Assembly (NCBI GenBank): GCA_964023275.1
Contig: OZ029916.1
Location: forward strand, 43,684,896 to 43,748,895
Reading direction: 5' to 3'
DNA: 64,000 nucleotides
Source: Norana najaformis
Lineage: Eukaryota > Annelida > Clitellata > Crassiclitellata > Hormogastridae
The notes below the pieces were generated by a model, which was not told the origin of the DNA, did not search any database, and saw only the letters and a list, made by a program, of their open reading frames with translations. A program made the position numbers and the translations under genes. Of this stretch, positions 9,714-60,176 are shown in pieces; position 1 is the stretch's first letter; each line of letters opens with the position of its first letter.

Positions 9714-12700
9714 TTGCAAATATGAACAGATATACATCTTGGAGCACCAGTACAAAAACGTGGACCATAACGACCTCATCAATTCGATGACTCAGGTAAA
9801 CATTTATACGTTATAATTCGTCAAGTTTCAGCCATAATTAACATTTATGAAGAAGACTGTAAACACAACATGACGACGAAGACGATGATGATGACGATGA
9901 AGATGGCGATGCTTATGACGATGAAGGTGTTATGGTGACGATGACGATAACACACTAATGTTTGATTCTTGCCTCGTTTGTCACATGACACCTAAAATTC
10001 CCCTCGTTTTCATCGCCGTTTTTCACTCCTACAGTTTTCTTTGAAATGTTCAGCTGTATCAACATTTTGCTCATTGCTCAAGTTTCCGTTCAAAAGAACC
10101 TCACACTTAAGACACAGTAAACACAAATTGTACCGCCCTTTTGATATCTGACTCATACCATAAAACTGGCGCCATATAAATTAGCCATTTACCTAGCGCA
10201 TTTTCAGTTGGATGCGGGGAGGGTGCGACTAGGCGAAGTCGTCGTCGCTCTCTTCGTCTGCAGGGCATGACCCCAAGAAAGAGCAGATGGAGGCGCCCTC
10301 TGACCCGGCCTTGATTCTTTCGGTTAAGTCCATGTTTCCAGTCGACTCCACCCTCAGAGACAGTATTGGCTCCGACGAAACGGATATCCGGTCGTCCATC
10401 TTGTCTTCCGCTCGGTCGGACACCGAATCGCTTCCGATCGGCGACGTCACTGGGCATGCGTAGTTAGCTTCCTTGTTTACCGTGAGAATATCGGCGAGAT
10501 TCATGAAACCGGTTTCCGTCCCGAGGGGTTTCGGTGCTTCGCCAGAGGTCGCCCGTGCAAACAGTCTTCGCATCCTTCCGGTCCGTTGCCACTCCTCGAA
10601 GAGCGCCTTCCCGTGTTTGTAGCCAACCTGTGCGATCTCGTCGAACTTGGCGAACTGCAGAGACTGGTATTTACTGATCGGTGGCCTCACGTAGTCGTAG
10701 AACTCGCTCGACTTGACGGCCTCCAGCAAACGCTCACAGGACACGTAGGCGAGCCGCGACTGGACCTCGGCCATGCTCGGGACCCGGGCCTTTTCGACCC
10801 AGGGACACCACCGGGTCCAGAGCAGCCACCAGCCGCTCAGCTCGTCTCCGTAGTTCGTGAACTCCGTGTCGCTTTCGCTGCTGACGTCGACGGCAAGGAT
10901 CGTCTGCGCGCCATGGCTCTTCATGACGTCGGCCGGAAGATTGTTGACGTAGGCGCCGTCGAGGAGCAGGTGCCCGTCGACGGGGTCGCAGAGCGGCGGC
11001 AGGTACCCGGCCAGCGACATGCTCGAGCGCACGTAGCGCCAGAGACAGCCCTGCGTGTGGACGCGCATCTTGGACGCCGTGACGTCCGTCGTGACGCAGA
11101 AGTAGGGCAGCCAGAGGTCCTCGATGTTGCAGTCGCGCAGGACGGACTCGATCTTGCGGTTGAACCGGTTTCCGGAGAGAAGCGACGTTAGGGGATAGGT
11201 GAAGTCCATCATCAGCGACCAGATTTTGCTCATGCTCAAAGACCACTCCTTGGCCAACCGTCGAAAGCGCACAAAGTTCGTCTCCTGCGACCAGAGGGCG
11301 CCCATAAACGCCCCGATACTCGTTCCCCCGACCATGTCGATCGGGATATCGGTCTCGACCATTGCCCGTAGGATCCCGACGTGGGCACAGCCTCTGGCCG
11401 CTCCACCACCGAGCACCAGACCCACGGCCGTCCCCGTCAAGATACGCGCCAGCCGAGAGAAGTCCGAAGTACGGGAGACCGGTCTGACCTTTGGCTTTTG
11501 ACCTTTGCGGGAAAGGACGTCGGCGGGGCAGCGGATGTGGTAGTGGGCCGTGATCCAATCCCTCCGACTCAGCCAATCAAGCGTGTCGCGAGGTCCTGCG
11601 CTGTCCTCGCGGTGTAGCAGCACAAGTTCCTTCTGGGCTCGACTGGATAGCTTTTCCAGCTGGCGTTCCAGCTCTCCAACAGAAGGATCGTGATCAGCGA
11701 CGGCTACGACAAGGACACAGTCCGCCTGCCGTATGCACCGATGGGTCCAGGGCGTGAGACGGAAATCACACTGGTAGAGGACCATCCGGTGAACGTCTTC
11801 CTGTTGGCTCAGCCAGCTCGATAGGCGGTAGGCGTTGACGCTGTCGAAGGCGGAGCTGCCCAGACGCGCCTCGACGCTCTCCTGACTGAGACACAGCGTG
11901 GGTCCGATGAGGTCAAGGGCCCGGCGCAGCTCGCGGGTGAAGTTCGTCAGAGGCACACGGTCAGACACCGGAAGCACTGCGACAGTGGAGAAGTTGGCGA
12001 CGAGGGGACGCGGCTCCAGATGCGGATGCTTGGACAGCATCGAGAAGAGGTTCGGCTGCTTCGTGAGGTGTCCCAGAATGCGTTGGCCCAGCAGGTGGAT
12101 CAGACGCGTGACGATCTGCGGGTGGCTTCGCTTGATCAAGTGCAGCAGACCGTCTGGAATCTGCGCCAGTTCCGTGTCGCGGACCGCCATCATCGTCGCC
12201 GGCCGAACGGTCTGCGTTAGGACCTCGACGAGACCAACGAGCTCTCCGCGCCCGTGTTCCCCTGCCAGCTCCTTCCTACCCGACGCCAGATGGCAGATCG
12301 ACCGCAGACGTCCGTTGAGCACGATGTACACGCAGTCCGACTTGTCCCTCTGTCGGTAGAGGGCCCGCCCGGCCTCGATGAAAATCCAGTCGAGGGCGAA
12401 ATCGATCTGACGGACGAATGGCGACATCCGACGCAAGACGATCTGGCCCATGTTCAGAACGATCTGAGGTTTCTGCTTGAGGAGCGCGTAGAAGTCCTTC
12501 TTGTCCAGGCCGAGGACGACCGTTGGATCGGTCGCCGTTTCGATGGTGAAAAGCGACGGTTCGCCGGTCAAGACCGCCAAAGCCCCGACCATTTCACCCG
12601 GGTGGACCGCATACAGAGTCCGCTGTTCCTCGGAGTTTCCGAGCAGCTGTTGTTTGACCTTGAGGCAACCGGAAATGACGAGGTACAGACAGTCCTCGTG

Positions 12701-15700
12701 CTCGCCCTCCTTCACAAGTGTCGAACCAGCGGCGAAGCTCAGGACTCGAAACCTGTCGTTTAGAAGACCCTCGTCGTTAATTCCTAGCAGGTCTGCCAGG
12801 TGTCGAACCGCAGACCGCACGTCTTGTTCACTGAGCATACTATTCGCCTCAGCCGGAATTTCCTGTGTAATTTTTCCACTTTGTGCTCTAGCGCAACCTG
12901 TTGAAGAAATGGTCCTTGAACGCAATTTTTCGACCGAATTCACGGTGCCTGACACCTTTTCTTTTGGCTCGGAGTGGCAGCTCACAGAAGTATCCAGATA
13001 CTCGTGGGAAAAGGACACGGCGCTCTGGAGACGACGAGTCTCGGGGTTCGAACCCTCACGACTCGGCCAGACGTGGATCTCTCTGCCACGTCGATCGTGA
13101 GTATCTTCTTCTGCGCCGGCGGGGGTCCCTCGCGGGTGTACCCTGTGTCCTTCGTCCTCAGGGTGTCTTTGCAGTTTCACTGGGGTCCGAACCACCGAAG
13201 CGGAACCCTGGTCGTTCGGAGCGACTAATTTCGTCGACTGATTGAACAGTTCCTTGCTCAAGCCGAGGTAATTGTGCAGCGCCAAGAATGTCACGCGCTG
13301 CAGTCGGACGGCTATAATCTGAACGACACGCACCAGTGATTCCGGGTAGCGATCCAGAACGATCCGGAGAGTCTTCAAGGGCAGCCGGAGTATGGTAGAG
13401 TCGACTTCAGCGACAGCATAGACCGTCTTGTACTTGGCTTGGCAACCAGTCAGCACGTCAAGGATGCTAAGAAGACTATGGATGCTCTCGCCCTGGGCCA
13501 CCTCCTTGACGCATGACTGCACACCGTCCGGTTCGGCGATGTAAAGCCGAACCTTTCCGGCCTGGACAACATAGATGCTGTCGTCGTCGTCACCGATGCA
13601 GAACAGGAACGTCTCCGCCGGAACGGAACGCGACTCGACGAACCGGCACAGCTCGAGGAAGATGGGCTCCTCGAAATGTCCAAACACGCGCACGTTGCGC
13701 AGCATGTACATCATCTCGGTCGGAAGCGTCTGGTCGGTCGATTCGAGACCTGGTAGATCGACCTCGAGAAGGGACTGAGAAGGGTCACGGATGCGTGTCG
13801 GGACGCGCTCCTTCCTCAGCTTCTGCAACCGCTTGCCTATGATCGATGCCAGTCGTTGACGACGTCCTTCGCTGACTTTGCGGATGAGGCGCCGACCGTA
13901 AAAGATGATCTTCTCGCGCTTTCTGAAGGACAGACGACGTTTCGGAGGTCGCTCAAGAACATCCTTGTCTCCATTAAGTCTGCGTCGACGGACCAGGAAG
14001 AGGTAGGCGCCGAGCAGGATCAGGGCAAACGCTCCGAGGATGGATCGAAGAAAGTCTACCTCCATCCGCAGCGCCGAGCAGTCGAGTTCTTCCCGAGTCT
14101 CAACCGACTGTGAAGCAGAAGACTCCTAATCGACTTTCGAGTGTAGAAAATTGCGGCAAATCGCTGATTCACTTCAGAAAGTAACTGATTCACGCAAGAG
14201 ATTTACGAGAGAGTTACTGATTCATTCGAGAGATTTACGATAGATTAACTAGAGATTTCATGATTCATAATCACTTTACAAAGAAACAGACGACGCTCAT
14301 GCCATAAAGTGACGTCATAATCTGCAAAGGACAATTGCGTCATCAGCAACACAAAATGGATAACAGAAAGCGTAAATTATGCTGCGCCATTTTATTAAAA
14401 AAAATTTGAAAGAACGTTAATTATCCTTTCGCAAAGCCAGAAATCCGAGTGGTAACTTCACGTTTTCGGTGTTTACTGCTTGTTGCGTAAGGCGAAGTAG
14501 ATCAAGATAAGCCAGAGCAAACGTAAGGTAATACAAGGTGAAGTAAGTTAAGACTAGGGTAAAGTAAGGAGAGACAATGCAAAATGTCAACGATCTTTTG
14601 AAGTATCAAACGACGATTGGGCTTCGAAATGTAGACTCACCCTATTGTTGTCGTAGCGTTAACTCCAGTAAAGGCACACAGTCTTTGAATTTTGTAATTT
14701 CCTATACAGACGCACGCTTTAAACTTACTGACTAAGCAGATTAATATTAGTCCCAAGAGGCGTCGTCCTGGGGTTAAAGAATCTGTTGTTATAAACGATG
14801 ATATCGTTTATATAGCGCCTTTCAAAGATCCTTAAAAGGTTTCACGTAAATAGTCAGATGCATGCATACATACTTACTTACTTCCGTTGGTTGGCTACTG
14901 AAGGCCCTTGAAGATGCCGGAAGACCAGTGGACTTTAACCTGAAGGAAGTTCTGCTGACGTGGATCGAGCAGATGGGATTCCCCCTCGTCACCGTCTCCA
15001 GGACCAGCAACGACTCTTCCGACCAACAAATAAACGTCACTCAGCGACTCTACCTCTTCCAACCAAACGCTGCTCTCGACGAAGCTTACCCTTCGCCTTA
15101 TGGGTACGTATACTTACCATTGTCTGCATAGTCCTTGTGTACATACCATAGACTGACAGACCACTTATACCTCGTGTACATACCATAGACTGACAGACCA
15201 CTTATAACTCGTGTACATACCATAGACCGACAGACCACTTATACCTCGTGTACATACCACAGACTGACCATTTACACCTCGTGTACATACCATATACTGA
15301 CAGACCACATAGACCTCCCGGTATACTGTCATTTCATACACGTGTAGACTCTATAGGAACAGCATACATGTATATGCTTCACTGTAAACCAGGACGCACT
15401 GAATAAGGCGCAGAAAATGTAGAATCGAGCCACAGCTGCGAACTAATAACGAAGATTCATATAAACCCACAAACATTTAGACCTATAATGGACACGGTAA
15501 TTATACGTAAGGCTTCCATTGCGATATGAATATCATGCTTATACTCATATAGCGCCTTTAATTTTAGAACATGCGACATATAACGTTATATATGTAATTA
15601 TAGGCTCTGTATACACTATCATATATACATATATTTACGCAGTAGCAATATATATATGTATATATATAGATTATATATACATATATTTATGCAGTAGCCA

Positions 15701-27869: not shown

Positions 27870-30800
27870 TCAGAAGATCAGTGCTTCTTCGATGTTTGTG
27901 GCGTTGGACAGGTCCTCGCTAAAATGAAAAACAAACTGGCTTCATTCAGCAGCCATCACCTGTCATCTTGAATCATCTTAACAAAGCGTCGTAATTGTTC
28001 CATCACCATCACCACCAAAAACTGCAGATCATATTTTCAAATCACCAACAGCACAATTTATGTAAGATTTTTATTCAAGTGAAATACGTATGCCCTAAGC
28101 TAAAAAGGAAATATAAGAATAAAGTAAAGTATCACATATCCCACAAGCGAGACGTAGAGAAGGTGCTCATCTATTTTTCTTAGCCCTTCAGCTGCCAATG
28201 GATAAATCCCAATGTCCTGGAGACAGGGCCAGCACATCACTGGACTTGCCATTTACTTCCCAGCTTATGTCATGTCATGTAATCATCTCTGGACTGGATC
28301 CAGTCGTTGATTTCTCTATGACATCCCTCCACAAATCCCGTCTCCCGGCCATCTCTTCAAGGGTCATTCTCCGTCTGCCCTCCGTTTTCCCATAGATAGT
28401 AACTCCGGCACCTTTCAGATCCTCTTCAAGGCAATCTATCCATCTTCTTTTCGGTCTTCCCACTGCTCTCTTTCCGTCCGGTTTGTATTTAAAGATTTTC
28501 TTTGGATTGCGGTTCTCCTCCATCCTCAGGACATGTCCTGCCCACTTCATTCTTCTTTTCTTGATCATATTGCTTATCAATGGTTGCTGTGTTCGTTGTC
28601 TAATACTCTCATTCGTTACATGGTCCTTATAGCTAACTCTTAGTATTCTTCTGAGCCATTTGTTTTCTGCTGCATTCAGTTTCTTCTCCATTGCTCTTGT
28701 AATACTCCATGACTCACATCCATAGATTAGTACTGGGATCACGCATGTGTTGAGGATTTTTAGCTTTATCGCCAGTTTTATATCATGTCGTTTGAAGACC
28801 TTTTGTAATCTGTTAAAGGTTGACCCTGCAAGCGCTATTCTCCTTTTGATTTCTGTTTCTGATCCTCCCCCTGCTTTCATTTCACTTCCCAGATAGACAA
28901 ACTTATTTATTACCTCAATTTCCTGTCCCTTAAGCTTAACTATTGGCCCGTTGTATTCCTTTTTTGTTATTGGCATTATTTTAGTTTTGTTATAGTTAAT
29001 TTTCAGTCCAAGTTTTCCACTTTCCTCTGCTAATGCCTCCAACAACTCCATTATTCTTGTTAGGCATTCTGCAATCATACATGCATCATCTGCATATTCG
29101 ACATCCTCTGTATTTCTTGGTTGAGATTGTGCTCCCAATTTATGAGTTCTTTCCAGACGTCTCATGATATAGTCCAATACCATATTAAACAAGATTGGTG
29201 ACAGGATGCACCCCTGTCGGAAACCTGTTTCTATCTTGAACCATTCCGTTTCTTCTCCTTCTAGTCGAATGCATGCCATTATTGTGCCATATAGTTTTCT
29301 GATGAGTCTGATTAATTTGGCGTGAATGCCATATTTCTCCAAGATCTTCCATGCTCCTGATCTCCAGACTGAGTCGTAGGCCTGGGCAAAGTCAATGAAG
29401 CACATAACTGTTTCTTTATTGTATTCAATTCTTTTTTCGATGATTTGTCGGATTACAAAGATCTGATCTGAACATCCTCTCCCTTTTCGAAATCCACTTT
29501 GATTTTCTCGTAGGATGTCATCCACTCTATCTGCCATTCTATTCAGGATGATTCTGGTGAAAACTTTGCCTGGTACACTTAATAGGCTGATTCCTCTGGA
29601 GTTGCCACATTCTTGTCTGTCTCCTTTTTTATATACTGGAATAATGACTGCTTTTCTCCAGTCCATAGGGATTTCCTCTGCTCTCCATACAGATGTTATT
29701 ACTCGATGCAGCCATTTTACTGTATATGTACCCGTATTCTGCAACATTTCTGCCGTTATCTTACATACTCCTGGGGCCTTGCCTTTTTTCATTTGATTAA
29801 CTGCCCTTTCTACTTCCTCTAGGGATACATCTTCTTCCTCATAATCATCCTCCTCCTCATTTAATAACTCGACCTGATCTATCTCGTTTATTATTTTCTC
29901 TATTTCTTTGGGCTCTTCTCTATTCAGTAACTCCTCAAAATGTTCTTTCCAGCGCTCCATTATCTTCTTTTTTTCAGTGATTATTTCTCCATTTGTTGTC
30001 CTTACTGGTTCTATGTTTATTAGTTTGTTATTAATTTCCCCACTTAGTTTTTTAACGTTGGCAAACAGTTTTTTGCTGTGTCCCCTCTTGTATGCCTCTT
30101 CCATCTCTTGTGCCATATCCTCCAACATAGTGTTCCTGTCTTTACTTAGATTTTTCTTTAGTCGTTTTCTCAGCTCACTCAGTTGCCCACCCTTCTCACT
30201 CTTCTCTCTCTTCGTGTTGGATAACATCTCTCCCTTTGTTTTCGTAACCATTCCCATTATATTCTCAGTCTCTTGTGATATCCATTTCCTTGCTTCATTT
30301 TTTCTGTGTCCTAGTTCTTCTGTCGCCACTTGATTAATTGTGTTTCTGAAGTTTTCCCACTCTATTTCTGCCTCATGACCTTCATCTATTAGATTAGTTA
30401 GTGCTTCATATTTGTTCTGTATCTTAATTTGGAATTGGTTACGTATTGCTTCTTCCTTCAGTTTCTCTGTGTCATAACGTGTTGTTTTTGGTGGTTTTTT
30501 CCCATGTAGCTTGATCTTGATTTCTGACACCACCAAGTGATGGTCTGAATTGATGTCCGCCGATCTATAGACTCTAGTGTTGGTTATTGATGTCAGCCAT
30601 TCTTCTCTTGTAATAATGTAATCTATCAGGTTCTCGGTCTTTCCGTCCGGTGAGCTCCATGTTGTCTTCCTGCTTGGTTCCCAGCTTATGCTGGTACCAA
30701 ATTATACTGCTTGGAGACAGAGGCACGATGCGCACAAACAACTTGACCACAATAACTAATAAAGTACAATGAAAATGGATCTTGCACAAGTAAAGCAGAA

Positions 30801-45960: not shown

Positions 45961-46264
45961 AATTTGCTTAAACTACCTTTGAACAATATTGTTAAAATTA
46001 CAAACTTTTTAGGCTTTCAATTCTGCTTGGAAAGGAGGGTAGGAAGGAAACCTGTTTTCTATTGAAATATTGAGAAAATGTTAGGCCAACAGTCCGAACC
46101 AGTAAGGGGAAAGCTTTCCACCTTCCAACCCATTGTATTATTTATGTTGTCTACTTGCTAAGCGCCACTAACCACTGTAATGACTAAGCATCAACAGATG
46201 GTGCTGAGCAATTGTTCTTGAAGGACTTGCTCAGTGTCTCGATTGACACAGTAATCGTCTCAGA

Positions 46265-46332
46265 GGAGGCTCGAACCCGAACACTCCGCGTTACAAGGCC
46301 AGTGCTCAAACCACTTGGCTAACGTGCCACAC
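46265..46332 (-). repeat. tRNA-like SINE head (sense -)
   Basis: Reverse complement: GTTAGCCAAGTGGTTTGAGC and GTTCGGGTTCGAGCC. It has tRNA internal promoter boxes but no acceptor stem pairing that I can see. Confidence 0.6.
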
Positions 46333-46349
46333 AAATCGTAAATGCATCC

Positions 46350-46447
46350 GCAAATGTACATTTTTTTAAAGCGAAAGTTTGGCCTCGACCCTGCTCATTT
46401 CTCAACGAATTTATCGGGTTAGATCCTTTACCACCGCTGCCCGTTTT
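46350..46447 (-). repeat. SINE family E copy, 3' end (sense -)
   Basis: GGCCTCGACCCTGCTCATTT, TTTATCGGGTTAGATCC and CACCGCTGCCCGTTTTAAAT match family E in reverse. Confidence 0.75.
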
Positions 46448-46776
46448 AAATCGTAAATCGTAGTCTGATCTCTGTTGAACAATGTCTCGAGTGAGGTTCA
46501 TTGTGTGTTCAAATTGAAGCCCTAAATCAACCGGAGGCCATTGGGGTTCTTCAGATTGGACCATGAACTCGTCGTCAATTCCAAGCCAGCTTTAATTATT
46601 TTTCTTCAAGTTATTTTTTCTTCTTGTAGATCAATGACGACAAGCGTAACAGATTTTTACAGCAAAACATTCAGTTGCTTGCTGGATTGATTGGTTGTTT
46701 GATTGATTGATTGATTGATTGAGTAGCATTAACCAGTGAGATTAAGTTCATGCAACACATCACACGACTGCTGTTG

Positions 46777-46782
46777 TTTATT
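46777..46782 (-). terminator. Polyadenylation signal of the DEG/ENaC gene
   Basis: AATAAA on the minus strand about 58 nt beyond the TGA at 46840-46842. Confidence 0.6.
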
Positions 46783-46839
46783 CAAGACAAGACCTCTCAA
46801 TTTCAGCCTGCGTCGTGGGCCCTGAAACCGGTATCTGCC

Positions 46840-47089
46840 TCAGTCCTCTTTGTTGCTGTCTGGCTGGAGAGGAAGGATCCAGGTCTGGCTCTTGCGCTGG
46901 CATCGAAGGACAAGAAAAAGAGCGATGAAGTCAATGAACTCGCAGACGGACAGGAGACTGGCACCGAGCAGAAGGCCCATCAGAGAACCGATATCGCTGA
47001 CGAGCCGTAGCTCGTCAAGAGCCACCTGTTGCTGGGTCGACACGTAGCTCATCTCCTTAAAGAAGATGTCGAGCTTTATGAAGTTCTCC
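46840..47089 (-). other. DEG/ENaC exon 10: pre-TM2 palm strand, TM2 and short C-tail
   Basis: RENFIKLDIFFKEMSYVSTQ leads into LRLVSDIGSLMGLLLGASLL and SVCEFIDFIALFLVLRC, an unmistakable TM2 with the GAS filter. A Ser sits before DIG at the position known as the degenerin site, small as expected. The C-terminus is only about 20 residues. The acceptor (CTTTGAAAG at 47090) has a weak pyrimidine tract. Confidence 0.88.
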
Positions 47090-50000
47090 CTTTCAAAGTC
47101 GACGACATAACAACAACAATAATGACATATATTCGCATTTAATACTCACGCTATCTATATGACTATTTGAAAATTGGTAGACTATTGGTCACCAGTAATT
47201 TCGTCTTGTAGGCCTATATCGTAGTCATAGGTCATGCATAGTCCCAGAGTTGCTCGCCTGAGTATATATCCTATAATAGATGTCGTATAATTTTGCCAAT
47301 ACAATACAATCTTTCAGCCTCTAAGTAGCCAACACCTAATATATTCTAATTGTTTTCGTATTAATACGGCGGGCTGGCCTATTCGATAGTTCGTTGTAAT
47401 CCAACGATATCTGGTTTGCGCCTGCTGAGCGGTCTGCGTGTATCTACCACATGCAGTTTGTTCGCGGACACTTTTCGCGCCTCAGATTCAGTTTAATGAC
47501 TCTGCCCAAGTAAAAAGTGCAATAAATGAAACTTGCAAAAATTCTGAAATAAAACGTACTTACCTGAAAAAATTGTCGTTCAGTTGGCTGTTTCTTACAC
47601 TGGCCTTGAGGTCCGCGTGAAGAGCCAAGAGAGCCTTTCGAAGCTTCTCGAAGCTCTGCTGGAGTCTGGTTTGAGTTTCGAGGATCGCCTGGCGATAGCT
47701 CCGATAGAGGACAGCCACGATGCCTGTGAAAGACCTCTCTCTGTCGGTCTGGATGTTGTCCAGCAGCCCCTCAAGTTCACTAACATTCTTGCAAAGTTTC
47801 TGAGCGTAGGCGGTCAGGTTGAGACGAGCTATGTTAGTATCGTTCATGACCGGTTGACTGAGATGGAAGGAGTGGCGGAACGCCGCCTGGATGTTGCTTT
47901 CCAGTCCTAGAAGCTTCGAGATGAAGAGGTTGTAGCTGCGGATATATCTGTCGTGGACAACGCTGACGCTGTTCCGGATCATCTCAAACTCGAACGAGGT
48001 CAGGTTCGTCTGGAGTTCCGTCTTCGTCAAGAGCGAGTTCTGGAATGCTTCGAGAATTGTCGTCGTCGAGTTCAACCCCTCGCGAACCATTTCCAGCGCC
48101 TGCCGACCGCTGGAGCCCAGCGATTCGCGAAGGCCCTTCAGAGCCTTGAAGGATCGAAGGGTTGCCTCAGCGTAGGCTGCGAACATTTCGTCCTCTTTCT
48201 CGTCAAGACTTGGCCAGCGACAGACGGCGAACCATTCGTCGCTTAGGAGTGAGTCGTTCTGGCGAGTCTTACCGTAGAACGATTCCAGTCTTCCAAGGAC
48301 CTCCAGCTTCTTTTTCCAGGTGGTGGTCGACTGTATGTACGTCCTGAGGTCGTTGGTCAGCGCAAGAAGCTTGCCAGACCAATACCTTGATGACGAATCC
48401 ATCGTATTAAGACAACTGGAAAAGCGAGCATCGTCTCGATAGTCCCAGGCTGTGTTTCCGTAGAGGTACGAGGCATACTCTCGGTAGACGACTCCGATTT
48501 CTTCGGCCTCTGTTTCGGCGTTCTGGGCGAACGATATGGTGTTGCTGATCTTCTGCTTCTTGTACCAAAGATAAGTGAACAACTTCGTATCGCTGCACAC
48601 ATAGAAACTGCTCAGGTTCTGAGATTGCATGAGCGAACTGGTTTCAGCAGCTGCGCACCTTTCGATCCACTTCCTCACCTTGCCCGTCCAGTTACTGCCT
48701 TCCGTATCCAGCGAAACTTTGACTTCAAGAAAGCCTTTGATGTTGTTGACCACATTGATGAATTTGCGGACCACCGGTTGACGCACAGCACTTGCTTCTC
48801 TTTTCTCCTCAAGGTCACGGCTGAGTGAACTCAGGTCTCCGAGGAACTGATCGACGTCATCCGTGACTTTGTGGCTGATTCCGAACTGGCTACGTAGAAG
48901 AACGTCGTCCTCGAGTAACCGGAAGCTGTCATTTAGATTCTTCTGATAGGAGCGGCTGGCGTTGAGGACGGAGAAGACTAGGTCTCGATTGCGCTGAGCA
49001 AACACCTTGTTCACCTTTTCCGAAGTCTCCCTCGCCGCCGAGAATTTTTCCTGCAGTTCCCCGACTGTAACAGTGAGAAGAGAGGTTAATAGGAATAACA
49101 AAAACAACAAAAACAACAACAACAACAACAGCCTGGTGAAAAACTTGTGCCTTTCTGTGTAACTGTCTGTCTGTTTGCTTGTCTGCCTACCTGTATGTCT
49201 AGTGAGAATTTCGGAAATGTACACGGACACTGCCCCGAGGTATACAGAATGTCTCAGTCTGCGATTTTTATATTTGCTATAGAAAATGATAAAGAAATTA
49301 GGCAAAGATATGGACAGACAAATAGTTATAGTGTGGTACTAACATGCACTCTTAGTAGTTACTTATAATTTATGATAAGACCTAGTATTATTGCCATCAT
49401 TTAAATGCATATATTTTGTTTATTTATTAAACCGGATAATTTATAGTATTTGCTGAGGTGGCGGTAGTGGTGGTGGTAGTGCACGAGGAGGAGGAGGAGG
49501 AGGAGGAGCAAGAGGAGGAGGAGGAGGAGGAGGAGGAGGAGGAGGAGGAGCAAGTGATTGTTGTGTTGTTTCTTGATGGTGGTGCTGTTGAAAACACGAT
49601 GATGATGGTAGTGTTGATGATGGCGACGTCAAGGTGGATGCTGGCTCGAAGAAAATAGCAGATACACAAACATACAGCCTACAAGGTCCATACAGAGAGT
49701 ATATACATGCATAGTATATACGAATATACATGCATACATATGCAGAAATCGTCCTTCATTGGTGCATTAGTTTAATGACGCTATAGAAGTTATAATAGAC
49801 ATCGTGGTCTAATCGAACCAGCCTGTGTGTTCCGTGTAACGATCCTGGGCAAGTTTTTGGTGCACATGTGCCTCTGTCACTAATCAGTAGAATTCGGTAC
49901 TGACCTTTGGGAAGTAAACGGTTGTCCTGCGATGCGCTGGCCCTGTGTCCAGGATCAACTGCCGGCTCGAGGGCCTATAGGAAAGGAAATGAGCGTGCCC

Positions 50001-50348
50001 CTACGCCTCACTTGTGGGATGTGGGATACTTTAAGTTGGAAGTAAACGGTTGTCCTGCGATGCGCTTGCCCTGTGTCCAGGACTTTGGGATTCGTCCATT
50101 GCCGGTTGAAGGGCCGAAGAGCGGGAAATGAAAGTCTCCCCTGCGTCCGTCCTACTATGGGGCACGGGAGCTCTACTTAATTTACTTGGACTCGACTTAC
50201 ACTTGAACTTGTCATATTCGGAGAGCTGTCTGACGTTAATCTTTGCGAGATGGGCATACGACAGCTGACCTTTGAACTGTCGGCGATTACAAGGACTTTC
50301 GCACTCACAGTCAACGCCTGCATGGTTCTTCAGACGAGCTACAGTTTT

Positions 50349-50391
<43 letters not shown>

Positions 50392-53300
50392 CATACTTCT
50401 ACTTCTACTACTACTACTACTACCACTACTGCTACTACTACTACCACTACTACCACTACCACTACTACTACTGTTATTATTACAAGATTAATTATATAGC
50501 GTAAATTAGTATAGGTGAATACAACTCAGATGCCATAAATAGACAGCATATTACTATAAAAATAGTGTTTGGTAGTGTTCATTTAGCATTTCCAGTCCTT
50601 TTCTGGCTACAAGATTAGCGTTGGTTATAATATGCTGAAGAATATGTCTGAAGACCTTTATGTCTGTCTGATTAATTAGGAACCTACACAAACAGAAAGG
50701 CAGACAGACGAACAGATAGACCAACAGACACAGACACACACACAGACACACGCAGACATAAACAGACACACACAGACAAATATGCAGACAGAAACATAGG
50801 CAGACAAACAGAGACATGCAGACACACTTCTGCGCCTTGACAGTTTCTCTGAGAGTTTTCTAAAAGACGCATCATAATGTCAAGAGCCAGGCACCTACAT
50901 AGACATACACAAACACAGACAGTCAGGCAGACGGACAATGACAAACACCAATACATATGAAATGCCATTCTTACCCAGTTCCCTTCTGGCGCATTTGAAA
51001 GCAGACGACATATTGCAGACGGCCACTGTTGTTTAAAAAAACACATTTAATTGAATTAAATTTAATTAAAGTCAATTGCCTTCTCCTAACAGTTTAAATA
51101 ACACACAGACAATCAGATGTGCATCAGATTTATCGCTAGACATCAAAGGGGAAACTCAGAAGAAATCAATTCGGTCCTGATAATACAGAGTCGACAAATT
51201 GCAGCATTCGAGTAACTATGGTCAACATGATTTTTGTTTCCTTAATAAATGTTTGGTGATTCTAGCAGTGTTGAAGTCGCTAATTTCTCTATCACGTGAG
51301 GTTTTTGTGAAATTGTCGAAAGCTTAATCAGCCCACGACGAAGGTCTCTTCCTGCTAAAGTAAACGGAAGTAAATCGGAAGAAAACGGGGAGTCCTAAGA
51401 TGAAGCACTGGTCCAGCGTCCAAGACCTTCAAATTCGTCCACTGCTGGATCCAAAGCCTAAGAAAAGGTAATGAGCGCTTTACATAAGTCCGTGTTTGCA
51501 CACGAGTACCGCCCCCTACAGGTTGACACGAGTACAGACTGACACGAGTACAGACTGATACGAGTACGGGTTGATACGAGTACGGATAGGTACGAGTACA
51601 GGTTGATACGAGTACAGGTTGATACAAATATGCGCGCAACTAATATAAACGAGCATGCACTTGGGATATGCTGATCGTAATCGTAACTGTAATCGTAAGT
51701 GCGCATTTATATAGCGCCTCTTCAAGAAAACTCCTCAGAGGTGCTCCCGACCCGACAAAACACGATCAAACAGAATGGTCTTCAACCTCAGGCGACTTAG
51801 AATCAAAGAAAGGACAACAGGACCATGTTGCAGGTTGCATGACAGCCTGTTCAAAAAATGACGAACCTACCCTAGCGAAGGTACCATGCTGCAATGTGAA
51901 AGCACGGACAGAGGGAAGACTTCAAAACTGTGTGCTGCAGAGGAAGAAGTCAGGGCAGATTAGACTGAAATACACAGCTCCCTAAGATAGGATAGGGTAA
52001 GCAGTACGAGGTGTATACCCCCCATAGCTGCCACGCTGTCTCTCCGTCTGACTTTTGGATCTTGACCTGGAACCGAACCCCTTTGCCTATCGATTTTGTT
52101 TTGACTGAGCGCCTGTGAATAAGCTGGTCCCCGCGACGTGGCTTTCGTTGGGCGCTGTAGAAATTTCGGAATTACAATTACGATTACGACGTATGTGAGA
52201 ACTTGCCGTTGTTAATCGGTGGCATGAAAGCGTCGATGCAGCCGCAGAGTGCAGCGATCTGTGACGCTTGGCAACGAGCCAAGCAGACGGAGCGTGGCTG
52301 GCTGCCGCGCTTACAGGTCCCGTACGGCGGTTCCAGGTCATCAGCGACAGTTGAACTGATTGCGAGCAGGGTGTGGGTGCCAGGACCGATCGATACCCCA
52401 AGGTCCCTCATGGACGGAACGTCACTGGCCATGTGAAGCCGAACCTATCAATAAATCAATAAATTGATCATTCATTCATTCAGTCAGTCAGTTCTTCCTT
52501 CCTTCATTTATTTATTCACTCATTAATTCAGTCATTAAGTAAGGTAGTCGTTCATTCATTCATTAGTTCATCAGTCAGTCAGTCAATCAATCAGTCATTC
52601 AGTCAGTCACTTAGTCAGTTAGTCAGTTAATCAGTCACTCAGTCATTCATTCGAAATGCATGTTTGTATAAAGATGGAAATGAATAGGCACATAAATATA
52701 TTATGGCAATATCTGACAAGTCCTAGCTGGAGTTTTTAAGCTCTGAGATGTCATTTCTGCATCGCATAAAAATAAATATATACAGGAATGAATAGCAATG
52801 AATTAAACTTACAATGTAGTAAAAAAATTATAAAGAAAAATAGAAGAATTACAGTGGTTGATAGAGCAGAAATCTATTTAATCATACTTTACTTCTCATG
52901 ATTCCTGCTTCTCTTAACATCTGTTAAGTAGTTCTATGCCTACTGTATACCTTGACTGTTACTCACCCTGAGTTCTACTAACCCTGACTGTTACCCACCC
53001 TGACTGTTACTCACCCTGACTCCCACTTCGCTCTGAAGTCCGACCATGTATTCATACTGCTCAATGTTGAGCACAAGACGTAGTGCGAATCTTACGCCTG
53101 CGAAGAACACAAAACAAGATTGAACCTACTAAGGAAAATTAACAAGTTGCGTTTTCTTTCAACTTCCAGATGTAAACATACATTGCAGTAAATGACAATT
53201 AGTCTTTTGGTAATGTTTCTACATAAGACTGAAGGATCTTTGCCGCCGAAAGGCAAATACGATAAGGCCAATCCAACAACCTGAACACCTTCCTCCTTAC

Positions 53301-56300
53301 TTTCCTGACTCAGCAGAAAATAGCTACAGTTGTGGCACGGCACAACGGGATGTGATCCCTGGACGCGGTGATGAGAGGACTACACACTGACCACTTGGAC
53401 AAATCATTCAGTGAGATTTTATGAATAGCCGACTCGTCATATAAACTAATTTAAATATTAATAAATATTTTGAAAATCCTTCATTTGCAATTACTCAGTA
53501 AAATATCCTTGGATCTTTACCTATATCTGAGGCCTGCTGTACTATTCTTTAAATCGTTAATTACAACAGACTATAAACCTTTAGTAAACATTGTCCTGGT
53601 ATTATATTCTATGGATCTTATTAATCGCTGACTTTGAAGAGTTCTTGTAGCAAGCCAGTGGTCAAAATACATGTAAAATATAAATGTACATGTTTTTCTA
53701 TACCGACCTTATGACCTCAACCCCCTCATTATTCAATGAATTGATCGGGTGAGATCCTTCACCACCGCGCTGATATCCCGTTCTTCGGCGCTTGAGCAAG
53801 AAAAGGATGGGTACCAAAGTCCATGTCATACCGGATCTGTTGTGTACTCCCAGCTTATGTAGCTACCAAATTCTACTGTTTGGTTACAGACAAGCTCGCG
53901 TGCACTATTTGCTCAGAATCGCTACACGGAGTCCTCTCAGAAGGCTCTAACCCGCAATCGTTGCATAAGACGCGCGCTTCCTAAAAGACCGCATTGCCTA
54001 CGTCGAGTGCGATAGCTAAATTTTTTATTACTGTATATGCTGTAATCGTAATCTCGAGATTTCTACAGCGCCCAACGAAAGCTAAGTCGCGGGAATCAGC
54101 TTATTTACGGGCGCTCAGTCAAAACAAAATCGATAGGCAAAAGGGTTCGGTTCCTGGTCAAGATCCAGGAGCCAGGCAGTCAGACAGTCGGACGGCTGTT
54201 TAGGTTTGTAGCATACCTGACTGATTTACGTAGCGCTTGTTGTTGTTGTCGTGGTTGAAAGTATAACAGACGCCAAAGTCGGTTAAAGTTGTTTTGAAGT
54301 CTTCGTTGATGTTACAGATTTCACCTCTCCAAGCGCAGCTGCAGTCAACAGCAAATTCGACAATATTGACAAAAATATCGTTGGCATTGAAAAAAGTCGA
54401 TGAAAATTGCAAAAAAATTGTCGAAACTCCATCAAAACTTGAAAAATGAAAATCGATAAAAATCATTCTAAAAATCGATCGCAAAATTGATGAGAACTCA
54501 ATGAAAGTCGATAAGAAGCATGAAAATCGATAGAACAAGAATCACGCGTCATTCGAAATGCACTTGAACTCAAGGGACAAAAATTCAGTTGCATTTATTT
54601 GGATGAAACTCATCGGTCGCTTCACTGGAATCGTACATCATAAAACCAAAAAAGTTTGAAAGTGCCAGCTTATTCATGAGAGCTACATCAAGTCAAAGGA
54701 ATTGTCCAGATATGGCATATGAACAAGAACAAGATCCGGGATACCATAGAGGTACTGAGATATACACTGAGATATATACTGAGATATATACTGAGATATA
54801 TACTGTGGTATATCCTGATTCTTCCTCTTCTCCTTATCTCTCTTCTCGCTTCAATTTCAAACACCATCCACCGTAGCCGTCCGACTGTCTGACTGCCTGA
54901 CTCCTGGATCTTGACCTGGAACCGAACCCTTTTGCCGATCTATTTTGTTTTGACTGAGCGCCTGTGAATAAGCTGGTTCCCACGACTTAGCTTTCGTTGG
55001 GTGCTGTAGAAATCTCTAGATTACGGTTACGATGAGAAAATGAAGCTGTTACGGTGGGTTGTGCTTAGGAATGGAAGCATCAGGGTCAGATTTCTAAGGA
55101 CTTCATCTTTGAATGGACAGCCTAAGGAATGATAGAGAGAGGGACTTGAGATGATGCTGTCTGGTGAATGACAGAACCCGTGGAAGAACGGTATCTTTAA
55201 TACACAATAATTTAGTGCGTTTTTAAGGTTTGTAAAAGGCACTATGTAAAGAGCCATATGCATCCATACATACAATGAGCTGAGATGGTTAGAATGCGTA
55301 CACATTCATTAAAATTACAGCAAGTAAATGCAGTTTTATTCAGTTACGGTTAACTGCGTTATTAGCTATCTTCTGAGTTATTATATAAACAAAGATGTTA
55401 GAGTGTACTCTAGAGATCTTTGACATAAATGTGCCTTCAGATTGCTCTAATGCTCCGCATATACGAGTTGACCTCTGACCACTGACCTCTGACTTCTGAC
55501 CTCTGACCACTGACCTGTCAATGAAGTCCTCCTTCTGATGAGCTACACTCAGCAAGAACTCCGTCAAATTTGTTCCGGGGGGTTCCACAAATTTACCCCA
55601 GTCTGCGTTCTTAGTCATTCCTGACAGATATCAGTTAGACATTACTTAGTTAGATATCTGTCGTTATGAAGACATTTTAAATAATTATTAAGATAATAAT
55701 TTTTATTCAGACATGTATTAGACTGACTGAAAAGATAGAAAGAGTTGCTTTTTTATTGATGCCTTGGTTAATTTCGCGTTGTGTTTCGGCTGTTTTTGCT
55801 TCTATGGCATAATAAAGTTGTTGAATACAGTTGATTGTTCATATTTACACATTAATTATTCATATATTTGTTGACTTCATTTATATACGTAATAATTATT
55901 CATGTATTTGTTGAATATTCATTTTATATTAATTATTCATACACTTAATAATTATTCACACATAGTGTACTTATTTTACTTGTGTTAATATTTGAACATG
56001 CACAACTCGTTCAATCTCAATATAATTTCCTTTGCAATGTAATGTAATGTACTGAAGACGTCATTACTTTTACACGTTAACGACATAAGGGCTCAGACAG
56101 TTTAACCCTACAGCCTAATTTATATTAAATTTTTGTGCACACTTTTCACAAGCGACTAGTAAGTATCCCACAAATAAAAAGAATTTTTTTAAATTTAATT
56201 TTTACCCTTGTGACTCATAGACCCAAGATGTTGATACACAAAGCATCAAACTCCTACATTTAAAAACTGCATGTGATACAAATCGACGAATGCATGCATA

Positions 56301-59300
56301 AAAATTAAGTAGGCCTAATCTGTGTAATCTAATCTAATGACTTCTATAGCGCCGTTATCGTAACGCAAAAGGCATCAGAGGGTATGATCGCTTCGAGGTG
56401 AAACCACAGTAAACAATCATTTGCCATTGAAGAAAACTCGTCAAAATCCAATCCGTGTAGGTCAGGTTTTCCGGAAGACCGTGAGATTGCAACAGATCGT
56501 AATCGTAATCGTATTCGTAATCTCGAGATTTCTACAGCGCTCAACGAAAGCTAAGTCGCGGGAACCAGCTTATTCACAAGCGCTCAGTCAAAACAAAATC
56601 GTTAGGCAAAAGGGTCAAGATCCAGGAGTCAGGCACTCAGACAGTCGGACGGCTACGGTGGATGCTGTTTGAAATTGAAGCGAGAAGAGAGATGAGGGGA
56701 AGAGGAATAATCAGGATAAGATTTCTGGAAAAGAAGTGTTTTCAGTCTTGAGTGAAAGACCTGCGCAGAAACTGAAAGAGGTGAAGTGTTGGTGAGTTCG
56801 TATGATTGACCAGACAACTGTCGCAACAGATGAGTTTTGAGTTACTTATGTGTCTCATGCTTGCATTGCTCCAGCCTTATACTGATACAAATGTCACTGG
56901 AAAATACGCAGCACCCTTAGAAAGTCCTACACTGCTACACCAACTGGAATCTCGTGACTGTAATTGTAACTGTAATCGAAAACTTGTATAGTGTCTTGTC
57001 AACAGAGCCCCATCTGTTGACGATTAGATGATCTGTCCAATACGAACAAGTGACCTACCGTACATGTCGTTGTCGTAGATCTTCTCAACATAGTCGTACA
57101 TTTTCCTTTTCACTGTCTCTGTTATTCTGAAAATTATCGACCAACGAATGTATCTTTCAGAGCAAATAGCCTTAAATTATTATACATGTAGCAATAGTTC
57201 TATTGGATGATTTATTTCTGCACCATCTGTCTGAGTATGTTTTGCTGAATAGGAATGTCTTTCCAAATACGAATGTTCTCCGAATGCTGACTAAGTAAGT
57301 AAGTAATGCATTCGTTAACAAGCCATATGTCCATCTACTGAGCGGGTAATCGTAGGCGTGGGCGGGGCACAGCGGTCAGACAACAAAAGAAAGACGATAC
57401 AAATAGGTCCTTAGTCGCTTTACGAATATGTCTAGCGAGAATAATGTAAATAGGAAGACTATTCCATATGGCTGGTGCAGAATTGCTGAATCCTAGATTG
57501 ACTTAGCTACATTACACAGAACGAGGACGTTAGCCTTGACAAACTTTTAGCCTATTCTACCCAAGACGATGACTGAAATGTCCTAGAAGCTCTATCGACT
57601 ATGTTGTCCCTTCTACATGACTGACTGCTCTTACTGACTGCTATAGTAGCCTGGTTAGCTACATCGGTAAAGCGCGTGCGCCAAGGAGCTTCTGTAAGTG
57701 AGGATCCCAGGTTCGCGTCCCGGTCGTGGCTTATATCAGAGGTTTATACCTCGGGCTACTACGGTCCGTGCACGCGGACCTTAAATGGCGTGGCGCCCAT
57801 TCAAACGGGCAGCGGTGGTGAAGGATCTCACCCGATAAAATCATTGCAAAATGAGCAGGGTCGAGGCCATACGGTCGCTACATAAAACCTATACATTTAC
57901 ATTTATCTTACTTCTGACTACATCTCTTAAGTTAGTTTTCTGCCCTGCTCAGATACTGTTGCTAAGAGATACGTGCTGGATTCAGATTGGGCCTCGTGTT
58001 TGCACTTAAACTAAGAATTTCCAGAAGTGATGATGTCAATCTAACTTTCTGCTCCTGCTATTTTTAAGCCTCTACCTAGGCGAGCCCTCCCTGTCAGTCT
58101 TAGCAAATAGACTGCTTTGTTGGAAAGGCGTGATTTTACCACTAAATATGCTGATTGACCACCTCCAAAAACTTCTATAGTGGCTAGGCCTACTGCGCAG
58201 TGTAATATACTTCAACTTACTTACTCAGATCAACTCTGTGATATTTCAATAACAATTCTCAGTAGCTTCTCAGGGACATTATGTATGCATGTATGTATGT
58301 ACTGTATGTATGTATGTATGCATGTATGTATGTATGTATGCATGTATGTATGTATGTATGCATGTATGTATGTATGCATGTATGTATGTATGCATGTATG
58401 TATGTATGCATGTATGTATGCATGTATGTATGTATGTTTGTATGCATGTATGTATGTAGGGCCTATGTTTGTATGTATGTATGTATGCATGTATGTATCC
58501 ATGCATGCACAACAGCAATGAGGAGATGGAGATATGAACACCTGAAGTTGTTATGGTTACAGAGGGTGACGCTGGGAAATTCCAGGTGCTCGGGGAAGAC
58601 GAACTGGATGTTGATGCTGGACTGATACTCGAGATAGGTACAGACACGAACGATGACCTGATAGCCAAGGAGAACGAGATTCAGGAGCACGATCGACATC
58701 AAGATGCACCTGCAAGAATCATATCATCAGATCCATCCACTCTACCCTACTCTACCCGAACTATTAGCATCATCCAATCCAACCTACTAGTCTGGTTAGC
58801 TACATTGGTTAACGCTTATGTCAAGGCGCCTCTGTGCGTGAGGATGCCGGTTCGCGTCCCGATCGTGGTTCATTTCAGAGATTTAATCTCGGGGTAGCAC
58901 TGTCCGTAAAAGGGGCACCTTAAGTGGCATGGCGCCCATTCAAACGGGCAGCGGTGGTGAAGGATCTCACCCGATAAATTCGTTGACAAATGTGCAGGGT
59001 TGAGGCCATACGGTCGTAATCGTAATCGTAATTCCGAGATTTCTACTGCGCCCAACGAAAGCCACGTCGCGGAGACCAGCTTATTCACAGGCGCTTAGTC
59101 AAAACAAAATCGATAGGCAAAAGGGTTCGGTTCCAGGTCAAGATCCAAAAGTCAGACGGAGAGACAGCGTGGCAGCTATAGGGTGGTGGTGTTTGGGTTT
59201 GGAGAGGAGAGAGAGATAGGAGAAAGAATGGGTGTCGCTATAGAAAAACGTGTACATTTGCATTTACATTTGACACAGTCAAATCTATTCTGTTCTAGAT

Positions 59301-59665
59301 TAGACTAGTTTAATAAATTCATAATGAAATTACAGGAGGTCAGATTTGATAGATTAGATTAGATTAGGTTACCTGCGAACGGTGAATCTGTATTTGTCTC
59401 TCTTCGAGGAACAGAAGGCGCGCAGCCCATGTAGCGTCGTGCGTTGGGCGAACTGACTCCAGCTGGTCAGCCGGTCGACGCTCTCTTCGTTCTCGACGGC
59501 ACAGCGACCGCACAGAACGGGGCCTTTCGCGGCCGCAGCTGCCCCTCTCGGCGCGGAGACGGTCGAGCTCCGGCTAAGGTCGGGAGGCCCGCCGCACCCT
59601 CCTCGGAGCCCGAAGCCGGTCGTGGCGGAGAGGTAGCTAGGGGGAGCGTCCGTGTAGGCAAACAT
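46840..59665 (-). CDS. DEG/ENaC-family cation channel subunit with giant extracellular insertion, 10 exons
   Basis: Two-TM, trimeric, amiloride-sensitive-type Na+ channel subunit at the plasma membrane; the ligand is unknown. Exons (minus): 59665-59373, 58709-58542, 57126-57059, 55620-55515, 54338-54217, 53097-53015, 52444-52207, 51025-50975, 49064-47564, 47089-46840. They total 2880 nt: 959 residues in one frame. Seen in order: gating motif TTLHGLRAF (His79-Gly80), TM1 (99-126), post-TM1 LEFPSVTLCNHNNF, FIDSCAWRGEICN, DFGVCYTFNH, LRLVLNIEQYEYM, VSIGPGTHTLLAIS, PPYGTCKRGS, C-x-x-x-C, CGC and MPP, the 500-residue insertion (377-877), ENFIKLDIFFKEMSYVSTQQ, and TM2 with selectivity filter GAS (919-921) and Glu927. 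The start is the first ATG after an in-frame TGA. Without the insertion the length (about 460) suits the family. Exon 7's donor is GC. Confidence 0.9.
47564..49064 (-). other. DEG/ENaC exon 9: 500-residue insertion replacing the thumb
   Basis: A single open 1501-bp exon with strong splice sites (CACTGTTACAG acceptor, TTCAG|GTAAGT donor), phase 1 in and phase 2 out, matching exons 8 and 10. The encoded stretch is rich in Leu, Glu, Lys, Arg and Ser with heptad-like spacing, no hydrophobic membrane segment after the splice site, ten N-glycosylation sequons and only five cysteines. The family's Cys-rich thumb (C-x-C-x-x-P-C ... Y) is absent. I recognise no known domain. If intron 9 is retained, translation stops three bases past the exon. 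Confidence 0.85.
49440..49560 (+). repeat. (GGA)n microsatellite
   Basis: GAGGAGGAGGAGGAGGAG with CAA interruptions, in DEG/ENaC intron 8. Confidence 0.97.
49780..50175 (+). repeat. SINE family F, partly duplicated (sense +)
   Basis: CGTGTAACGATCCTGGGCAA, TGCCTCTGTCACTAATCAG and GAAGTAAACGGTTGTCCTGC; the last 130 bp block occurs twice (about 49911 and 50039). Confidence 0.75.
50345..50475 (+). repeat. (TCA)n and (CTA)n microsatellites
   Basis: TCATCATCATCATCATCA followed by CTACTACTACTACTACCA. Confidence 0.97.
50695..50940 (+). repeat. (ACAGAC)n/(ACACAG)n low-complexity tract
   Basis: CAGACAGACGAACAGATAGA and CACAGACACACACAGACA sequences immediately below the exon 8 donor at 50974. Confidence 0.9.
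51355..51490 (+). repeat. SINE family F 3' fragment (sense +)
   Basis: AAGCACTGGTCCAGCGTCCA, AATTCGTCCACTGCTGGAT and AAAAGGTAATGAGCGC match the family-F 3' part. Confidence 0.65.
51515..51640 (+). repeat. 10-11 bp tandem repeat GATACGAGTACAGGTT
   Basis: About eight units of ACGAGTACAGGTTGAT-like sequence, in DEG/ENaC intron 7. Confidence 0.85.
51665..51800 (-). repeat. SINE family C, 3' end (sense -)
   Basis: GATCGTAATCGTAACTGTAA tail, TTTATATAGCGCCTCTTCAA and GAGGTGCTCCCGACCCGAC match family C. Confidence 0.75.
52015..52190 (+). repeat. SINE family A copy (sense +) beside a splice donor
   Basis: From CTGCCACGCTGTCTCTCCG to AATTACAATTACGATTACGA. Its tail ends about 15 bp below the GC donor of DEG/ENaC exon 7 (52205-52206), antisense to the gene. 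Confidence 0.88.
52450..52655 (+). repeat. (ATTC/AGTC)n microsatellite
   Basis: CATTCATTCAGTCAGTCAGT-type sequence beginning about 10 bp above DEG/ENaC exon 7. Confidence 0.92.
52951..53014 (-). repeat. 16-bp tandem repeat re-creating the DEG/ENaC intron 6 donor
   Basis: On the minus strand GTGAGTAACAGTCAGG is repeated four times with changes (GTGGGT, GTTAGT, GTGAGT), starting at the donor of exon 6. Confidence 0.9.
53690..53775 (-). repeat. SINE family E, 3' end (sense -)
   Basis: CTATACCGACCTTATGACCT and TTGATCGGGTGAGATCCTTC match family E in reverse. Confidence 0.7.
53785..53998 (-). repeat. SINE family F copy (sense -)
   Basis: CTCCCAGCTTATGTAGCTAC, TTCTACTGTTTGGTTACAGA and CTCTAACCCGCAATCGTTGC (B-box in reverse). 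Confidence 0.7.
54040..54198 (-). repeat. SINE family A copy (sense -)
   Basis: TGTAATCGTAATCTCGAGAT through GGTTCCTGGTCAAGATCCAG; it ends about 20 bp below DEG/ENaC exon 5. Confidence 0.85.
54820..55035 (+). repeat. SINE family A copy (sense +)
   Basis: CTTCCTCTTCTCCTTATCTC through GATTACGGTTACGATG. Confidence 0.85.
55466..55514 (-). repeat. 7-bp tandem repeat re-creating the DEG/ENaC intron 4 donor
   Basis: On the minus strand GTCAGTG GTCAGAG GTCAGAA ... seven heptamers start exactly at the donor (GACAG|GTCAGTG) of exon 4. Confidence 0.92.
56325..56430 (-). repeat. SINE family B, 3' part (sense -)
   Basis: TAATCTAATCTAATGACTTC, TATAGCGCCGTTATCGTAAC and AAAGGCATCAGAGGGT match family B. 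Confidence 0.75.
56497..56830 (-). repeat. SINE family A copy (sense -), long
   Basis: CGTAATCGTAATCGTATTCG through GTTTTCAGTCTTGAGTGAAA and GACAACTGTCGCAAC, reaching the internal body seen in the full-length element. Confidence 0.85.
57645..57905 (+). repeat. tRNA-derived SINE family E, full-length (sense +)
   Basis: Head GGTTAGCTACATCGGTAAAG (A-box region) and CAGGTTCGCGTCCCGG (B-box), body GGCGCCCATTCAAACGGGCA, end GGCCATACGGTCGCTACATA and tail ACATTTACATTTA. Pol III-type internal promoter is intact-looking. Confidence 0.88.
58276..58510 (+). repeat. (ATGT)n microsatellite
   Basis: TGTATGTATGTATGCATGTA units in DEG/ENaC intron 2, starting about 40 bp below the donor. Confidence 0.97.
58542..58709 (-). 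other. DEG/ENaC exon 2: TM1 and first extracellular strand
   Basis: RCILMSIVLLNLVLLGYQVI forms TM1; LEFPSVTLCNHNNFR is the conserved post-TM1 F-P-x-V-T-x-C-N block. Acceptor CTTGCAG at 58710; donor TTCAG|GTGTTC. Confidence 0.9.
58787..59011 (+). repeat. tRNA-derived SINE family E copy (sense +) joined to family A
   Basis: CTGGTTAGCTACATTGGTTA, CCGGTTCGCGTCCCGATCG and GAGGCCATACGGTCG; the 3' end runs directly into the ATTACG tail of an inverted family-A copy. Confidence 0.88.
59011..59225 (-). repeat. SINE family A copy (sense -)
   Basis: CGTAATCGTAATCGTAATTC through GATCCAAAAGTCAGACGGAG and GGGTTTGGAGAGGAGAGAG, in DEG/ENaC intron 1. Confidence 0.88.
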
Positions 59666-59699
59666 TTCGCTCGTCAAACGACTGAGTCAAAGTATCGTC

Positions 59700-60176
59700 C
59701 AGTGAAATTGTTTATTGTTTATTGAAATTGTTTATTGGTTCACCAACAACCAACAGTCTAAACAGTAACAACAGTTTCACCTAGAATATTACAAGTGCTG
59801 ACGTCAAAGGATAATCCAGACGGGAAAAATGTCCCGCTATCATATGGTTAACTCTCTCACATAATTCATATACAGGCGGCTAACGCAATACGGCATGTAA
59901 GCCCATAATTGCAAAGCTCGAGATGCAGGTTTCTTGGCCACTCCTGTTTGTAAAACACTCATCGTCAAACATTTCAATGTGGTAATCGTCGTTGTCGGCA
60001 TGGTCTCATCGTCATTGTCGTCGTCATCGTCAAAGTCATCACCATCTCCACAGCCATCTTCATCATCGTCAATGACAACAATAACAGCAGAAATAACAAA
60101 GCAGCAACATTATCAACAACTACAAACGTTATCATCATCAATGCCGTCATCATTAATGATAATATAATATAATATA

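Follow-up and report, generated by a model that had tools for sequence, protein, structure and literature searches.

An ASIC-like DEG/ENaC channel gene of Norana najaformis with a predicted helical domain of about 500 residues placed in the knuckle

DEG/ENaC channels share one common ectodomain plan and are recognised by two transmembrane (TM) segments, an FPxVTxCN motif, a GxS filter and a CxCxxPC thumb; to our knowledge, the stimulus that opens many of the invertebrate members is not known. Nematode EGAS channels likewise have an extra extracellular domain, but it consists of EGF-like repeats towards the N-terminal side of their ectodomain and is not a helical knuckle domain such as the one proposed here. 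The annelid and mollusc FaNaCs (PDB 8on7 and 7yvb, the latter of which we take to be the FaNaC of Aplysia) belong to the same superfamily, and a control gene of the genome studied here (L001) is FaNaC-like. Trichoplax TadNaC has insertions between its two knuckle helices, which PMC6827283 presents as predicted loops, whereas the insertion reported here is a predicted helical domain about the size of a whole channel subunit. The extracellular domain of ASICs is given as ~300 residues in PMC9949801, which describes H73, D78, K211, E411 and E416 as fairly conserved in all ASICs.

The window analysed here is a stretch of 64,000 nucleotides of Norana najaformis (contig OZ029916.1, 43,684,896 to 43,748,895), within which all positions are given unless marked C13. 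On its minus strand lies a DEG/ENaC gene that we model with 11 exons (59665-46840), 3018 nt and 1005 amino acids, all junctions being in frame. The model was built from homology and splice signals, and on these the architecture, a DEG/ENaC channel plus an insert, appears well supported. Exon 1 (59373..59665) encodes the cytoplasmic N terminus with a TLHG (His-Gly) motif, aligns with ASIC1 and with a paralogue on contig C13 and ends on a GT donor in phase 2; its putative start is the first in-frame ATG past an upstream stop. TM1 and FPSVTLCN lie in exon 2 (58542..58709; profile match, AG/GT, phases 2/2), followed by the shortened finger in exon 3 (57059..57126; AG/GT, phases 2/1), where the tblastn match to C13 exon 3 is weak (E 0.006), and by further finger sequence (NLTEFLLSVAHQKEDFID) in exon 4 (55515..55620; phases 1/2; tblastn to C13 exon 4, E 1.4e-6). 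Palm and ball (CAWRGEICN...CYTFNH) are found in exon 5 (54217..54338; profile match, 58.5% to C13 exon 5), the LRLVLNIEQYEYM...VGVR stretch that matches the LDIQQDEYLP block of ASIC1 in exon 6 (53015..53097; phases 1/0), and more palm with CGC...MPP in exon 7 (52207..52444; profile match, 45.6% to C13 exon 7, phases 0/1), the donor of which is GC (gcaagt, position 52206) and makes a GC-AG intron. Exon 8 (50975..51025; phases 1/1) contributes thumb sequence (VAVCNMSSAFKCARREL), with C13 exon 8 (VCDMAKSFFCVRSNL) at the equivalent place. Exon 9 (50201..50338; AG/GTAAGT, phases 1/1) contributes the end of thumb helix alpha5, CECESPC, strand beta10 and the start of knuckle helix alpha6, with the cysteine spacing of ASIC1. 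The inserted helical domain occupies exon 10 (47564..49064; 592-codon frame, AG/GTAAGT, phases 1/2), which was exon 9 in a preliminary description of this locus. After it come ENFIKLDIFFKEM and the GAS filter, in agreement with the DEG/ENaC assignment first made downstream of the insert: exon 11 (46840..47089) encodes beta11-beta12, TM2 with the filter, the C terminus and the stop, and by itself matches Pfam ASC positions 400-455 (58 bits, E 1.1e-15).

Elsewhere in the window, an intronless frame of 1298 codons (10229-14125, minus strand) encodes an NTE P-loop-like stretch, three cNMP-binding stretches and a patatin domain, and is presumably of the neuropathy target esterase or PNPLA6-7 type. 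The block around it has 58-59% G+C, against 33-48% in the rest of the window, and the frame looks like a retrocopy or a single-exon gene. A frame of 808 codons (28275-30701, minus strand) encodes a reverse transcriptase domain and is probably a non-LTR retrotransposon, and a frame at 1824-2378 (plus strand) resembles, by eye only, the start of an M1 aminopeptidase.

When the whole genome (608 Mb, 17 contigs; five candidates scored) was searched with the insert, three hits had E values of 10 or below: the window itself, C13:24326608-24328002 (27%, E 7.8e-36) and a third no better than chance (E 0.139). The C13 match belongs to a paralogue on another chromosome with the same architecture (11 exons, 1077 amino acids), and, with the inserts left aside, its protein shares 41% identity with that of the window gene across 497 aligned positions. 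Intron phase is common to both at nine of the ten introns, as is intron place, judged by eye; the tenth follows beta10 in the window gene, whereas in C13 it interrupts the insert after ~57 residues. The intron that follows C13 exon 10 is of the GC-AG type (gcaagt donor, C13 24326602). Among the protein candidates scored, 4 of 7998 matched the window insert (71, 68, 46 and 44% identity) and 2 of 8000 the C13 insert (74 and 69%). These six relatives (P0001-P0006), four of window type and two of paralogue type, are contig ORFs whose source code 'lgn' we read as Logan; they look like genomic exon reads, as they stop or run on past the same 3' residue, and since both insert types are among them, the two kinds of paralogue are apparently present in other genomes as well. 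The same exon order in the paralogue, an insert identity of 25% over 530 columns and the presence of the insert in six ORFs from other contigs all agree with the original proposal of one gene with a large insertion. A profile search for further insert relatives found none, in a database and through a word filter that would miss genes in short exons. P0003-P0005 read MQV/KQV beyond the end point of C13 exon 10, which, from their translations only, suggests a GC donor. The intron after exon 7 holds the same repeat in both paralogues (window 52171-51953, C13 24330601-24330419; 90% over 51 translated residues), which may be chance, similar stretches occurring elsewhere in the window. Intron 3-4 of the paralogue contains, on the opposite strand, a 999-codon frame (C13:24333318-24336314, plus) that by eye is endonuclease/reverse-transcriptase-like.

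By alignment, both paralogues have two TM segments, FPxVTxCN after TM1, a GxS filter in TM2 and a CxCxxPC thumb. Against Pfam ASC (cut-off 23.6 bits) the window gene scores 247.6 bits, as modelled before the exon 9 acceptor was corrected, and C13 scores 283.2 bits without its exon 8. The channel part is best matched by ASICs (ASIC1, ASIC2 and ASIC5; PDB 9e4a, 6l6p, 9mky), with ASIC1 30% identical over 452 positions. In PDB searches with a first model of 998 amino acids, ASIC1 was the best match at 142.5 bits (E 1.2e-40), followed by ENaC alpha (85.4) and, as the highest-scoring FaNaC, 7yvb (76.4; 45 for 8on7), and no such inserted domain is present in the aligned FaNaC parts. By these scores the window protein resembles ASICs more than any other DEG/ENaC of solved structure; the control L001 prefers the FaNaC1 of the annelid Malacoceros (8on7, 406.9 bits) over 7yvb (167.2), a preference that, for this one protein, suggests an annelid host. 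The His-Gly motif, the thumb cysteine spacing and the GAS filter are common to ASICs and the window gene. In contrast to ASICs, the window gene has a shorter finger and a knuckle insertion, its 493 extra residues departing from the ~300-residue ASIC ectodomain. In our own alignment mapping, H73, D78, K211, E411 and E416 are all replaced in the window gene (0/5 kept; S, Q, Q, K and V), and C13 keeps two of the five (K211 and E416). For this reason the window channel is here termed ASIC-like rather than an ASIC. Proton gating via the usual ASIC residues is unlikely. The genome contains at least 97 DEG/ENaC matches (genes or exons, for example on C1, C7 and C8; 93 of 751 candidates scored), among them neighbouring groups of single-exon genes.

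The position of the insert can be read from the same alignments. With phmmer, query residues 1-138 correspond to ASIC2 chain residues 248-395 and query residues 631-692 to 396-457, which puts the insert exactly between 395 and 396; against ASIC1 the split falls at chain residue 390/391 (first 998-amino-acid model). Thumb helix alpha5 of human ASIC1a is described as carrying D347 and D351 (PMC7553779), and by our own residue count on the ASIC1 alignment both precede CxCxxPC. The helix after beta10 would therefore be alpha6, as also in PMC11026163, that is the helix named as the ENaC knuckle in PMC7413742, and two knuckle helices are described in PMC6827283. On this mapping the thumb is kept and the insertion follows beta10, where it separates the two knuckle helices at the membrane-distal top. 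The insert proper spans residues 424-916 (493 amino acids; 47584..49062), its ends being placed by eye on the alignments with ASIC1 and C13, and its size is ~490-520 residues across the channels considered.

Ten N-glycosylation sequons were counted in the window insert, as first described; in the eight aligned sequences, sequons stand mostly at differing positions, and one N position is a sequon in all eight. The insert was also described as Cys-poor, which holds for the number of cysteines but overlooks four that are invariant in 8/8 sequences (codons starting at 48657, 48597, 48414 and 48222) and that may form disulfides. Its proposed helical nature is supported by two AlphaFold models, the best of each run (pLDDT 69.8 and 75.2); both runs were built on the same seven sequences, and in each only the best of five models was good (next best 49.1 and 57.9). 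With moderate confidence, the models predict that the insert begins and ends in a long helix, each of ~50 residues in the window model, with a helical bundle between the two. Their fold matches are generic helical bundles, the fold types compared being the TTYH ectodomain and alpha-pore-forming toxin bundles. In Pfam, the 592-codon frame had no match at E up to 1, exon 10 alone gave two weak rows under the family cut-offs (E 0.17 and 0.82), and the inserts of seven members had no significant match (best E 0.021, each listed family appearing in one member only). The insert profile had no significant match among PDB sequences (one chain, E 0.18). Judged by its sequence, the insert is best regarded as an unclassified domain within a DEG/ENaC architecture.

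What could such a domain do? We consider it somewhat probable that this is an ASIC-like DEG/ENaC channel with a helical knuckle crown, which binds a matrix component or a ligand and acts via the knuckle-finger interface. A folded helical domain of ~490-520 residues would be inserted between the two knuckle helices, and the three inserts of a trimer would rise as a crown from the membrane-distal top, where the knuckles meet the neighbours' fingers. Outside the cell, the head of the crown would bind matrix, a glycan or a secreted ligand. Pull or binding energy may then travel along the long end helices, reach the knuckle and the neighbouring subunit's finger, and from there act on thumb and pore. 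The insert would thus be an anchor or a receptor, outside contact biasing the finger and hence the pore. Several descriptions of related channels bear on this route: the knuckle faces the finger of the neighbouring subunit (PMC7413742), the knuckles form the upper vestibule (PMC6827283), and in annelid FaNaC1 ligand-driven finger movement draws the thumb (PMC11026163). The latter source describes alpha6 as relatively static in FaNaC1 gating, so an anchor or a ligand wall fits better than a moving lever. The idea of a new sensing or tethering ectodomain thus survives as a proposal, with a route through knuckle and finger in place of the direct coupling to the thumb first envisaged. As to the partner, the number of sequons, together with the role as matrix tethers proposed for ENaC N-glycans (PMC7958617), makes a tether our first guess; a soluble ligand seems to us slightly less likely than a tether to matrix or surface.

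Alternatively, the insert could be a passive or assembly element that shields the channel, pairs subunits at the knuckle-finger interface or serves surface delivery, without sensing. Alpha6 is reported to contact the alpha2 of the neighbour at an interface discussed for ENaC subunit arrangement (PMC7413742), the static alpha6 of FaNaC1 (PMC11026163) would suit such a role, and many sequons at mostly differing positions fit a shield. The two paralogues and six ORFs nevertheless keep many invariant residues, beyond what a shield would seem to need, and we regard this passive role as rather unlikely. The insert could also be the head of a soluble-ligand receptor, for example for a peptide, with the ligand no longer bound at the reduced finger. 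Such a head is partly the same proposal as the knuckle crown that we prefer, a secreted ligand being among the candidate partners of that crown, and it draws on alpha6 being part of the peptide pocket described for annelid FaNaC1 (PMC11026163) and on a finger shorter than that of ASIC1 in both paralogues. The fold matches are generic helical bundles, and a dedicated soluble-ligand head is a more doubtful candidate still.

The preliminary description had the thumb itself replaced by the insert, in a protein of 959 amino acids (2880 nt). The supposed intron 50974-49065, however, contains exon 9 (138 nt, phase 1 in and 1 out), which encodes ...VDCECESPCNRRQFKGQLSYAHL, that is the CxCxxPC thumb motif and beta10. 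It was reached with a profile built from eight DEG/ENaC genes with one exon each, all from this genome, which led to the C13 exon, after which the same motif was recognised in the window. Because exon 9 is in phase 1/1, its omission keeps the frame, and the total of 2880 nt looked consistent; adding it gives the present length. An alternative acceptor at 50317 would shorten the exon to 117 nt and the thumb by seven residues, the thumb still being present. We prefer the acceptor at 50338 despite its poor pyrimidine tract, because it reproduces exactly the ASIC1 spacing, C-7-C-15-C-x-C-x-x-P-C, found in both paralogues. Loss of the thumb would hold only if exon 9 were skipped, which its phases would allow, but with exon 9 the alignment to ASIC1 is complete as far as the insert, and the exon has a counterpart in the C13 paralogue, so that we consider a replaced thumb very improbable.

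Exon 10 itself, with its AG acceptor and GTAAGT donor, lies inside an open frame of 592 codons; the longest frame in 200 dinucleotide-preserving shuffles of 46001-60000 had 218 codons. It could belong to a gene of its own nested in the channel gene, or be a chance frame, the channel being spliced without it. A large exon of no recognisable family and a channel model drawn from homology and splice signals might suggest this, but it is the least credible reading of all: frame and phases fit on both sides (1 in and 2 out, as first described); skipping 1501 nt, not a multiple of three, would break the frame; judged from translations, the exon ends 3' at one and the same residue in C13, the relatives and the window gene; and, arguing strongly against a nested gene, the thumb motif and the insert start lie in one exon of the C13 model (24329342-24329027).

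A conserved knuckle domain of ~500 residues amounts to a natural gain-of-module experiment, and suggests that the apex can accommodate a domain the size of the channel itself. Tentatively, and with less confidence than we give to the crown acting via the knuckle-finger interface, the insert may found a new extracellular domain family, a three-stalk knuckle crown in which a matrix tether or a surface ligand would gate a channel from which most or all proton-sensing residues are gone. It offers a testable case of an external module acting on the finger-thumb-pore pathway, and widens the ASIC-like channels to genes in which few or none of the conserved gating residues are left.
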